Shown piece after piece: positions 3,522 to 6,282 of a stretch of DNA of 64,000 bases. The stretch is taken from positions 1,798,001 to 1,862,000 of the forward strand of contig NZ_CP121446.1 of NCBI RefSeq assembly GCF_030643905.1, in the 5' to 3' direction. The stretch is from Flavobacterium sp. IMCC34852. Lineage in GTDB: Bacteria; Bacteroidota; Bacteroidia; Flavobacteriales; Flavobacteriaceae. The translations under genes were made by a program, and so were the position numbers. How positions within the stretch are numbered: the first letter of the stretch is position 1; every line of letters begins with the position of its first letter. The notes below the pieces were generated by a model that was given only the letters and a program-made list of their open reading frames with translations, searched no databases and had not been told where the DNA came from.

Positions 3522-4511
3522 ATGAGAATCTTACTTGTTAGTATTTTATTGTTCTCTACATTTGCTTTTTCTCAGCAAAAGATTCCTAATTTAACTTCTA
3601 TAACGCTATACAAGACTTACAACGAATCGGATGATGGTCCTTGTAATGCTTTTAAAGATGAACAATTTGCTCAAATTATGTCAAGGACTATTAAAGACTG
3701 TGATGATTTGGTTATGGAATTAATTAATTTAAAACATAGCCAAAAATCTTCCAAAAGAATTGGAGTTCCTTGTAGTAAAGGTTGTATTGGTTGTTCAGAT
3801 ATAGAGAATATGATAGTCTATCAATACAATAAACTTATTGATACAATTTATTATATCAATAATGATTATGAAAAAATTATTATTGATTCATATCAGCAAA
3901 ATGCTTACACTGATGATGAAAGCAAATTACTTGATATTCTTTTTAAGAGTGAAGAATTTAAGGTTTTTTATCAGACTGATATTAATAAACTTTTTAATCA
4001 AATTTATTTTAACTCAAAAAAAGACTCAATAGCTGTTGAAAGTATTAAAATCAAGAATGTTCCAATATATGGCTTGCATAGAGAGGAAGTTGAAAAGCTA
4101 ATAGGAGGTTTTGATGGTATATATACTGAGGAAGAAAAATTCAATCATTGGAGTAAGAACATAAAATGTACATTGTTTGGATTTAACTCAGGAAATGAGT
4201 TTTATTTTAATGATAATGATCCAATTAATTGTTTTTCTGTAGAGTTTTTGCAAATGGATGAAGATGAAATTAAAGATTTGGAATTATATGATGTAGTTGG
4301 ATTATTTGTGGGAGATGACGAAATAAAATTTAATGAAAAGTTTCCAAGTATGGACAAAATACTATCTGTTCAAAAAGAGTATTTTAAAGAAAAAAACGGA
4401 GATTATTCAATTACAGTTATGATTGCAAATCATAAAGGAAGAATAGATTATGTTCTAAATAATTCAAAAATTAAACAGATTGTAGTAAATTTTCGTTACC
4501 CAACTAACTAA
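3522..4511 (+). CDS. Exported protein of unknown function
   Basis: 329 residues from the ATG two bases after the ppx stop; the same frame is open upstream inside ppx, but this ATG begins a clear signal peptide (M-R-I-L-L-V-S-I-L-L-F-S-T-F-A-F-S-Q). The mature part has a cysteine cluster C-S-K-G-C-I-G-C near residues 83-90, many acidic residues and no family I recognise. Base composition looks more AT-rich than the polyphosphate genes before it, so it may be a lineage-specific addition at the operon end. It converges on dnaX with a four-base overlap (4508-4511). Confidence 0.75.
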   Translation: MRILLVSILLFSTFAFSQQKIPNLTSITLYKTYNESDDGPCNAFKDEQFAQIMSRTIKDCDDLVMELINLKHSQKSSKRIGVPCSKGCIGCSDIENMIVYQYNKLIDTIYYINNDYEKIIIDSYQQNAYTDDESKLLDILFKSEEFKVFYQTDINKLFNQIYFNSKKDSIAVESIKIKNVPIYGLHREEVEKLIGGFDGIYTEEEKFNHWSKNIKCTLFGFNSGNEFYFNDNDPINCFSVEFLQMDEDEIKDLELYDVVGLFVGDDEIKFNEKFPSMDKILSVQKEYFKEKNGDYSITVMIANHKGRIDYVLNNSKIKQIVVNFRYPTN

Positions 4512-5219
4512 ACATCCAAATCAAACATCTTTTTCAACAACTCTAAATTCGGGTTGATTTCTACCAAACGATTGTATTTGTCTTGGTTGGTAAAAGCCCT
4601 TTTTACCACTAAAGTTTCGTTGACTTTCACATTAATAGTAATGTCATGGTTATGCAGTTTACCCCGCAAATAACCTAAAAGTTCCGGTTTTTCTTTTTCA
4701 AAATCTATTTTCGAACTCTCATTCGGCAACTCGTGAATGATAGTGGTTCCGTCCAATATCGGATCATTGATGGTCAAAAGTGAAGCCACAATGCGATACC
4801 CTTTATCTTCCATGCGCTGTGCATATTTCAACCATTGCTCGAGCATTTCGGTTTCTGTAAATGGTTCGCTAGGCAAATGCACCGTGTCTTTCACCACCGA
4901 TTTTTGCGCTTCAGCCATTTCTTTCTTCGCACGAATACTGGCAAGGGATAAGGCGGAAACTTTGGTTGTAGGTTGAGAATTCCGGGTTGTAGGTTCTACG
5001 TTCTCGGTTGTCGGTTGTTGGTTGTCGGTTGTCGGTTGTTGGTTGTCAGTTGTCGGTTGAACTACAACTTCTTCTGTATGCTGCGTTGTGCTTTCTGCTT
5101 TCTCAATTATTTTAGTAGTCTCCACACTTCGTACTTCCAACTTCGTACTTTGCACTTCGGCTATAGAATAATCATTCTTGCGATAATATGTGGGTGGAAT
5201 TATAAACTCAGCTTTTTTT
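4508..5219 (-). CDS. dnaX: DnaX tau-specific C-terminal extension, reached by -1 frameshift
   Basis: Continuation of DnaX in the -1 frame after the ten-A run; it cannot be read from the dnaX ATG without slippage. A stand-alone reading would have to begin at a GTG at 5155, but the frame is open back to the A run and encodes an unbroken join (K-A-E-F-I-I-P-P). Slippage would give a tau of 591 residues. The part beyond the gamma stop has a threonine/proline/glutamine-rich linker of near-repeats (Q-P-T-T-D-N-Q) and then a folded domain from about F-T-E-T-E-M-L-E-Q-W-L to the end. In other bacteria the tau-specific part binds the polymerase alpha subunit and the helicase; that role is inferred here. 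A homopolymer error in the assembly is the main alternative. Confidence 0.8.
4973..5063 (-). repeat. Short degenerate tandem repeats coding the DnaX tau linker
   Basis: On the plus strand this is a run of GGTTGT-CGGTTGT-TGGTTGT type units of seven to eight bases. In the tau frame it codes Q-P-T-T-D-N-Q repeated with small changes. A second degenerate block, CTTCGTACTT-like, lies at about 5125-5160. The array can vary in length while keeping a disordered linker, provided changes are multiples of three bases. Confidence 0.8.
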
Positions 5220-6282
5220 TTTCTCCATCAAAAGTGATAGAGCTTATTTGCATCAGCGTGAGTTCAACCAACAGGCGTTGGTTTTGGGAAACTTTGTATT
5301 TTAAATCACAATCATTCGCCAAGTCAATTCCTTTCAAAAGAAATTCTTGTGAAGCTTTTTGCGATTGTTGTCCGTAGAGTTGTTGTGCCGCTTCACCCAT
5401 TTCTAATAAAGAAAGTGTCGCCGGATTTTTGGCTACCAATAAATCCCTGAAATGCGAAGCCAATCCGGCAATAAAATGATGTCCGTCAAAACCTTTGGAT
5501 AAAATATCATTATACGCCAATAAAACTTCGGGAATTTTATTTTCCAAAATCAAATCGGTCATATTAATATAAGTCTCGTAATCCAGAACGTTCAAGTTCT
5601 CCGTAACGGCTTGTCTTGTCAAATTATTTCCGCAAAAAGAAACCACACGGTCAAAAATCGATAACGCATCACGCATCGCACCATCGGCTTTTTGCGCAAT
5701 AATGTGCAAAGCATCGTCTTCAAAAACTACGCCTTGACTGGTCGCCACTTCCGCCAAATGTTCTTTAGCATCTTTAACGGTTATGCGCTTGAAATCGAAA
5801 ATTTGACAACGCGATAAGATAGTCGGAATGATTTTGTGTTTTTCGGTCGTGGCCAAAATGAATATGGCATGCTTAGGCGGTTCTTCCAAGGTTTTCAAAA
5901 ACGCATTGAAAGCAGCCGAAGACAACATATGCACCTCGTCAATGATATACACTTTGTATTGTCCGGTTTGTGGCGGGATTCTAACTTGGTCAATCAGGTT
6001 TCGAATATCATCCACCGAGTTGTTAGAAGCAGCATCCAATTCGAAGACATTAAAAGCAAAATCCTCAAACGGATCATCATAACCGGGTTGGTTTATCTTT
6101 CGGGCCAAAATACGCGCACAAGTGGTTTTACCAACACCACGCGGACCGGTAAACAATAGGGCAGAAGCCAAGTGATTGTTTTCTATGGCATTGAGCAAAG
6201 TATTGGTAATAGCCTGTTGTCCAACAACGTCTTTAAACGTTTGCGGACGATACTTTCGGGCTGATACTACAAATTGTTCCAT
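5200..6282 (-). CDS. dnaX: DNA polymerase III clamp-loader subunit gamma (zero-frame DnaX)
   Basis: AAA+ clamp-loader ATPase: A-R-K-Y-R-P-Q-T-F at the N-terminus, Walker A G-P-R-G-V-G-K-T-T near residue 46, L-D-A-A-S-N-N-S-V-D-D-I-R, Walker B I-I-D-E-V-H-M-L, and sensor/arginine-finger T-I-L-S-R-C-Q-I-F-D-F. It ends four codons after the A run with K-L-S-L-stop, giving a 360-residue protein that covers the ATPase and oligomerisation domains. The four-cysteine zinc module usually found after Walker A is absent: K-I-N-Q runs through a short acidic loop straight into F-E-L-D-A-A-S. Together with the -1-frame product this gives the usual gamma/tau pair. Confidence 0.95.
   Translation of the reverse strand: MEQFVVSARKYRPQTFKDVVGQQAITNTLLNAIENNHLASALLFTGPRGVGKTTCARILARKINQPGYDDPFEDFAFNVFELDAASNNSVDDIRNLIDQVRIPPQTGQYKVYIIDEVHMLSSAAFNAFLKTLEEPPKHAIFILATTEKHKIIPTILSRCQIFDFKRITVKDAKEHLAEVATSQGVVFEDDALHIIAQKADGAMRDALSIFDRVVSFCGNNLTRQAVTENLNVLDYETYINMTDLILENKIPEVLLAYNDILSKGFDGHHFIAGLASHFRDLLVAKNPATLSLLEMGEAAQQLYGQQSQKASQEFLLKGIDLANDCDLKYKVSQNQRLLVELTLMQISSITFDGEKKKLSL
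5213..5222 (-). other. Ten-A slippery run in dnaX
   Basis: On the coding strand the sequence is GGAG followed by ten A and then GCTGAG. Zero frame reads GAA-AAA-AAA-AAG-CTG and stops at TAA (5200-5202); shifting back one base reads GAA-AAA-AAA-AAA-GCT and stays open for over 230 codons. In E. coli dnaX the slippery site is A-AAA-AAG with ribosomal slippage; in Thermus thermophilus dnaX a run of nine A causes slippage by RNA polymerase. A run of ten fits either mechanism. Confidence 0.8.

Follow-up and report, generated by a model that had tools for sequence, protein, structure and literature searches.

How can a dnaX gene supply both the gamma and the tau subunit of the clamp loader when its reading frame closes almost immediately behind a run of ten A residues? 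This question is raised by the dnaX gene of Flavobacterium sp. IMCC34852, which lies on the minus strand, from 6282 to 4508, in a stretch of 64,000 nucleotides (hereafter the window; G000:C1:1798001-1862000) of a complete, single-contig 3.17-Mb genome. Across the run the zero frame reads GAT GGA GAA AAA AAA AAG CTG AGT TTA TAA, and the gene has the two-ORF layout, in which the zero frame stops just past the run as gamma and tau continues in the -1 frame (Table 1). By arithmetic, a product joined at the run comprises 357 + 234 = 591 aa. The frames recomputed from the sequence agree with the original prediction in their coordinates, in the lengths of gamma (360 aa) and tau (591 aa), and in the count of ten A residues.

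Table 1. Features of the dnaX locus in window coordinates
Feature	Position	Strand	Basis or detail
dnaX zero frame, gamma subunit, 360 aa	5200..6282	-	ATG 6282, stop TAA 5202-5200
A10 run (T10 on the plus strand), candidate slippage site	5213..5222	-	starts inside codon 354
Heptamer A_AAA_AAG in zero-frame phase, letters identical to the E. coli dnaX ribosomal shift site	5212..5218	-	sequence
TGA closing the +1 frame (9-A mRNA), 0 codons after the run	5208..5210	-	sequence
TAA closing the zero frame, 3 codons after the run; arises from tau-frame ATA-ATT (Ile-Ile)	5200..5202	-	sequence
Tau C-terminal part, -1 frame, 234 codons, stop 4510-4508	4511..5212	-	open frame, NF011531, dN/dS
Variable linker between the run and the tau C-terminal domain	4916..5212	-	low conservation, low pLDDT, short tandem repeats at ~5006-5038
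Tau C-terminal domain, folded, from about residue 100 of the tail	4511..4915	-	

The gamma part contains the DnaX clamp-loader ATPase domains, as seen from its matches to TIGR02397 (dnaX_nterm; 382 bits, cut-off 250) and, above their cut-offs, to PF13177 and PF22608. When searched with NF011531, the NCBIfam DnaX model of 614 positions, gamma covers positions 1 to 369 and the -1-frame tail separately covers positions 402 to 613 (E = 1.4e-26); the whole-protein cut-off of 685 bits is reached by neither piece alone (614.4 and 93.5). Because each piece has its own match to this model, gamma and the -1-frame tail are halves of one protein. For the tail, comparison of the window with the three closest relatives that share its arrangement gives dN/dS values of 0.14 (L003), 0.10 (L033), and 0.13 (L009), and the median over 119 Flavobacterium tails is 0.23 (range 0.05 to 0.80; 334 pairs with pS <0.6). 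Such low values imply that the tail is translated and useful. The C-terminal domain in the -1 frame, which had been described as conserved-looking, is thus a real coding frame by both the NF011531 match and the dN/dS of 0.10 to 0.14. In the tau frame, conservation is seen right behind the run (FIIPP in the window); it then drops to 0.16 to 0.18 in tail residues 21 to 80, and the pLDDT of the predicted structure is 51 to 69 in tail residues 1 to 90.

The gamma-tau linker of the window carries short tandem repeats (5006-5038) with the word GGTTGTCGGTTG at three sites. This word occurs 22 times in the genome, compared with 3 occurrences of a reversed control, and the linker seems to have acquired or amplified a dispersed repeat; the linkers of relatives contain other repeat-like sequence. 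A search of the tau tail against Pfam returned no family, and in the protein database the tail carries a precomputed PF28557 annotation. A profile of 49 tau tails gave nothing convincing among PDB sequences (best E = 0.19). Fold comparison of the modeled tail points to a possible resemblance to DnaA domain I and DciA, with no tau domain structure among the matches listed. Tails are also stored in databases as separate proteins (P0001-P0120; the 120 listed of 1697 matches, proteins near the tail length), several of them named “hypothetical protein” and one, P0050, “Holliday junction ATP-dependent helicase RuvB.”

To place the A run in its phylogenetic context, 376 dnaX loci were collected, of which 360 are distinct after the removal of 14 duplicates and 2 loci cut at contig ends. 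Flavobacterium, in which dnaX was found in 199 genomes, is represented by 139 distinct loci (73 plus 66 named ones, the latter drawn from the best 80 matches of a search and hence leaning to near relatives), and the rest of Flavobacteriaceae by every full-length match (127 loci). The sample from the class consists of 62 loci (22 listed class members and 40 picked by hand for spread over families) and that from the phylum of 30 loci picked likewise; these distant picks preceded any look at the runs, yet they are no random draw, and related loci throughout are not independent of one another. The 139 Flavobacterium loci form one side of a gene-tree branch, including five with MAG names of other genera. 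These five (L036, L039, L056, L077, and L081) come from MAG contigs named Sphingobacterium, Rhizobium, Chitinophaga, or Bdellovibrio, with a dnaX that falls inside Flavobacterium; they are cases of wrong names or mixed bins.

A run of 9 to 12 A residues is present at the junction in 339 of the 360 distinct loci: in all 139 of Flavobacterium, in 126 of 127 of other Flavobacteriaceae, in 2 of 2 from another family of the order, and, with these two included, in 74 of 94 more distant Bacteroidota (55 of 62 in the class and 17 of 30 in the phylum), where the stretch examined for a run was longer (110 codons), making a chance run slightly likelier. Ten A residues are found in 292 of the 339 runs, nine in 23, eleven in 23, and twelve in 1. 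Not one of the 360 loci has a run of 8, and the other 21 have at most 7. In the rest of the coding strand of these genes, runs of at least 9 A residues occur in only 3 of 337, so the run at the junction is not a product of chance. Retention of a homopolymer of at least 9 A residues among orthologues is a mark of Thermus-type dnaX genes. The bases directly after A10 are far less constant, the commonest base making up 34 to 46% in six of eight columns and 59% and 70% in the other two (290 A10 loci). Of 265 Flavobacteriaceae loci, 256 have the first A of the run at the second codon position, mostly encoding Glu-Lys-Lys; the distant loci are spread over all three phases (30, 28, and 16 of 74) and encode 55 different pentapeptides. 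Three loci with a GC3 of 0.92 to 0.94 (L336, L394, and L403) keep an intact A10, although elsewhere in their gamma part lysine is never encoded by AAA; among all loci with a GC3 of at least 0.7, the run is present in 8 of 15 and absent in 7. As judged by comparison of these loci, the conserved unit is the nucleotide run, not the amino acids that it encodes.

In the window genome, 27 distinct A10 runs were inspected (30 of 38 pattern matches, with three doubles). Two of them, L341 and L355, lie well inside stop-to-stop frames of at least 150 codons, two others, L364 and L351, lie at most 7 codons into frames of 282 and 310 codons, respectively, and the remaining runs are in frames shorter than 150 codons. 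Among the 27, only that of dnaX is found far inside a frame exceeding 350 codons.

Several loci depart from the common arrangement. One member of Flavobacteriaceae, L249 (G213:C3), has only four A residues at the junction, followed by TAA, and its -1 frame nevertheless encodes the tau tail; the cause is another mechanism of shifting, a misassembly, or a gene that is broken. No run of at least 8 A residues was found in the searched stretch of L299, L301, L372, L380, L386, L390, L401, and 13 phylum loci. In these 20 class and phylum loci tau is in the zero frame wherever it could be resolved; they are probable losses, or else they never had the run, and they could serve as negative controls. The class member L385 has two A10 runs in the stretch searched after codon 345.

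A further mark of the Thermus type, nearby stops in both non-tau frames, is present in the window and is widespread among the relatives. For the frame counts, 7 loci without a resolved tau frame were omitted, leaving 337 that have both a run and a resolved frame. Both non-tau frames stop within 5 codons past the run in 311 of these 337 (15 to 16% at control positions of the same genes) and within 8 codons in 322 (28 to 29% at controls). Closure of both frames is retained after thinning at 80% identity (197 of 222 loci), is absent within 5 codons at 26 of the 337 loci, and exceeds the controls for each off-frame in every group. The tau+1 frame bears on the mechanism because a -1 ribosomal shift from a gene with tau as the default product would not use it; at such tau-default loci it is nonetheless closed in 98 of 107 other Flavobacteriaceae (control 0.36) and in 39 of 48 more distant loci (control 0.29). 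Codon choice behind the run is likewise skewed. Among the 132 Flavobacterium loci with the motif (6 of 138 are without it), ATA serves as the first Ile codon in 129, as compared with an ATA share of 16% among the Ile codons of the gamma part, a bias suggestive of selection favoring a stop in a frame unused by tau.

The frame in which tau is encoded has not been constant. Relative to the gamma reading, tau is in the -1 frame in 160 of the 337 loci, in the zero frame in 168, and in the +1 frame in 9; when only A10 loci are considered, for which homopolymer miscounts matter less, the numbers are 146, 141, and 3. Gamma is the default product in Flavobacterium (122 of 138 resolved loci, with tau in -1), and tau is the default in other Flavobacteriaceae (107 of 126 resolved loci). 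The original prediction called for a comparison of flavobacterial dnaX genes, and this bears out the run at every Flavobacterium locus and the -1 frame at most of them; the run is no peculiarity of the genus, since it is kept by the wider family and by most of the distant phylum loci. Among near relatives, L003, L004, L005, L009, and L033 have A10 and the -1 arrangement as in the window, L006, L007, L008, and L032 have A10 and one extra spacer base behind the run that brings tau into frame, and L020 has 11 A residues. The gene of L006 reads A10-GCCTGA where that of the window reads A10-GCTGA, a one-base difference in spacing between near-identical sister genes.

Supported branches of a 26-row tree of near relatives force at least two frame changes. 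In a 360-row FastTree tree they force at least 17 switches, and parsimony on the same topology gives 47, numbers that come from a single gene with long branches and from a tool that itself advises caution. We consider it likely that in Bacteroidota dnaX selection maintains slippage itself and not the frame, and that indels behind the run have repeatedly swapped the default product. An ancestral site of 9 to 11 A residues with stops in both other frames would have yielded some mRNAs for gamma and some for tau whatever the encoded length, and single-base indels right behind the run would then have exchanged the default product, at least 17 times on the supported branches. Relatives with one continuous frame, which the original prediction had named as grounds for its own refutation, are in fact many. 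They do not overturn it, however, because those within the family nearly all keep the run and both near stops, so that slippage in them would make gamma instead of tau.

The RNA-DNA hybrid held in RNA polymerase spans about ten bases, which in this case would consist wholly of rA:dT. On a T10 template the polymerase could therefore realign and release mRNAs with 9, 10, 11, or more A residues. In the window, both the unslipped mRNA with 10 A residues and that with 9 would reach a stop no more than four codons past the run, yielding gamma of about 360 aa, while an mRNA with 11 (or 8, or 14) would join the frames and give tau of about 591 aa with its C-terminal replisome-binding domain. We assign a probability of roughly 80% to the reading that A10 is a programmed slippage site through which one dnaX gene provides both clamp-loader subunits. 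The original prediction of gamma and tau by slippage gains strong support from the comparative evidence, namely, the conserved run, the closed frames, and the switching. From these patterns we infer slippage that is predominantly transcriptional and supplies useful amounts of both products.

The most substantial rival holds that tau arises mainly by -1 programmed ribosomal frameshifting in the manner of E. coli, with ribosomes slipping back on A_AAA_AAG in a uniform 10-A mRNA. The heptamer is indeed in the correct phase in the window, the -1 direction prevails in Flavobacterium, and one review describes the reversed dnaX type as a derivative of ribosomal frameshifting (PMC5009743). Further points against slippage on the run are L249, which keeps tau in the -1 frame with only four A residues, the 21 of 360 loci without a run of at least 8, the lack of a run in 7 of the 15 loci with a GC3 of at least 0.7, and the 26 of 337 loci at which closure of both other frames within 5 codons is missing. 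The tRNA-Lys genes found, two copies, have the anticodon UUU only, as given for E. coli in PMC5009743; the list may be incomplete, as 150 of 289 candidates were scored and one tRNA-Leu or more went undetected. None of its 40 tRNA matches was a tRNA-Lys with the anticodon CUU, and the one match of an extra pattern search for it was no tRNA. Against this route, the direction of the shift is not conserved: tau requires a +1 shift at 9 loci and none at 168, all with the run kept. A ribosomal site spans seven bases and has no need of 9 or more A residues, so the lower limit of nine is hard to reconcile with it. An SD-like word 5 to 16 nt upstream is found in 0 of 138 Flavobacterium loci; GGAG-like words abut the run itself, within the Asp-Gly-Glu codons, in 121 of 138 Flavobacterium loci, 86 of 125 other Flavobacteriaceae, and 8 of 74 distant loci. 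Nor is there an excess of downstream structure, with a median z in Flavobacterium of 0.15 at the site and -0.21 at controls in a test of low power (E. coli dnaX itself scores -0.64). The 60 nt behind the run fold with an MFE of -3.1 kcal/mol in the window (z = +0.8) and -23.2 kcal/mol in E. coli (z = -0.64), the low value of this positive control marking the z test as weak. F. johnsoniae is moreover reported to frameshift poorly at its prfB site and to use SD sequences rarely (PMC12421855). Variable direction among orthologues was taken by Antonov et al. as a sign of transcriptional realignment (PMC3711429), and closure of both off-frames is the Thermus pattern (PMC5009743). Together with the 9-A threshold, these two features appear to fit RNA-polymerase slippage of the Thermus type better than -1 ribosomal frameshifting, which we regard as unlikely to be the main route. 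Ribosomal slippage may add to the long product. The join peptide KAEFIIPP cannot separate the addition of one A by RNA polymerase from a -1 slip of the ribosome, because both routes give Glu-Lys-Lys-Lys-Ala-Glu-Phe.

Alternatively, the tau tail could be a separate protein made by internal initiation and never fused to gamma, in keeping with a GTG-started 215-aa ORF within the tail and with the separate database entries for tail proteins; we judge this very improbable, as 168 loci with the run encode the fused protein in one frame and the conserved residues after the run (FIIPP) lie in the tau frame upstream of that GTG. Phase variation, in which the genomic run grows and shrinks and so turns tau on and off, is more doubtful still. 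A10 tracts are mutable, and 47 of the 339 runs are 9, 11, or 12 long, but length 10 is kept in 292 across the phylum, and many relatives already have tau as an in-frame product. As dnaX is a core replication gene, a state with tau off is implausible. Phase variation was dropped as the main reading. The faintest prospect is that of an assembly error or a pseudogene, where the true sequence would have 11 A residues and one frame, or tau would be dead. Homopolymers are error-prone. The same A10 and -1 arrangement recurs, however, in the five near relatives named above, and the four in-frame ones owe their frame to an extra base after A10 and not to an eleventh A, although L020 does have 11; purifying selection on the tail speaks against a pseudogene. 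Sequencing error and pseudogene were rejected on the basis of these relatives and of the dN/dS values.

Slippage at A10, our preferred reading, has counterparts among known systems. The dnaX gene of Thermus thermophilus, with transcriptional slippage on 9 A residues, resembles that of the window in having at least 9 A residues, close stops in both other frames, and gamma and tau from one gene (PMC1088944, PMC5009743). The zero frame of Thermus encodes tau, however, whereas in the window it encodes gamma and slippage would make the long product; slippage has been measured in Thermus, and in the window we infer it from sequence (PMC1088944, PMC5009743). E. coli dnaX (L408), with its -1 ribosomal frameshift at A_AAA_AAG, shares with the window the in-frame heptamer, the two products, and a single kind of tRNA-Lys (PMC5009743 for the tRNA), but it has only six A residues, an SD-like word upstream, and a stem-loop downstream, and its shift makes gamma. 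Shigella mxiE, a case of transcriptional slippage in an unrelated gene, is similar in that the longer product requires slippage (PMC1088944). The two-ORF dnaX type itself was described in 2013 by Antonov et al., who reported 17 genes from 12 genera, nine of them with 10 A residues, for which they suggest transcriptional realignment (PMC3711429). As in the window, the zero frame of that type terminates as gamma, and a -1 shift is required for tau (PMC3711429); in Bacteroidota, by comparison, this arrangement is one of the states taken by a site that spans the phylum and has a repeatedly switching default frame. A review notes that one nucleotide can reverse the roles of gamma and tau (PMC5009743). 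Apart from these two sources (PMC3711429, PMC5009743), the open-access papers searched contained no account of dnaX slippage across Bacteroidota, nor any of phylum-wide retention with repeated role reversal. The two-ORF type is thus already known, and the phylum-wide retention with repeated reversal is the part worth pursuing.

According to a 2012 review, enterobacteria and Thermus apart, a frameshift signature is not retained in the dnaX gene of most bacteria, and these may lack gamma (PMC3290774). In contrast, the signature is kept by a whole family and by 74 of 94 distant phylum loci, in the form either of a single ORF, in which the short product goes unseen, or of two ORFs that gene finders split. 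Near-identical sister genes such as those of the window and L006 are suited to measuring slippage, and the repeated role reversal constitutes a natural experiment on the purpose of gamma. The retention of the signature by the family and by most of the distant phylum loci speaks for the importance of a short DnaX to these bacteria.
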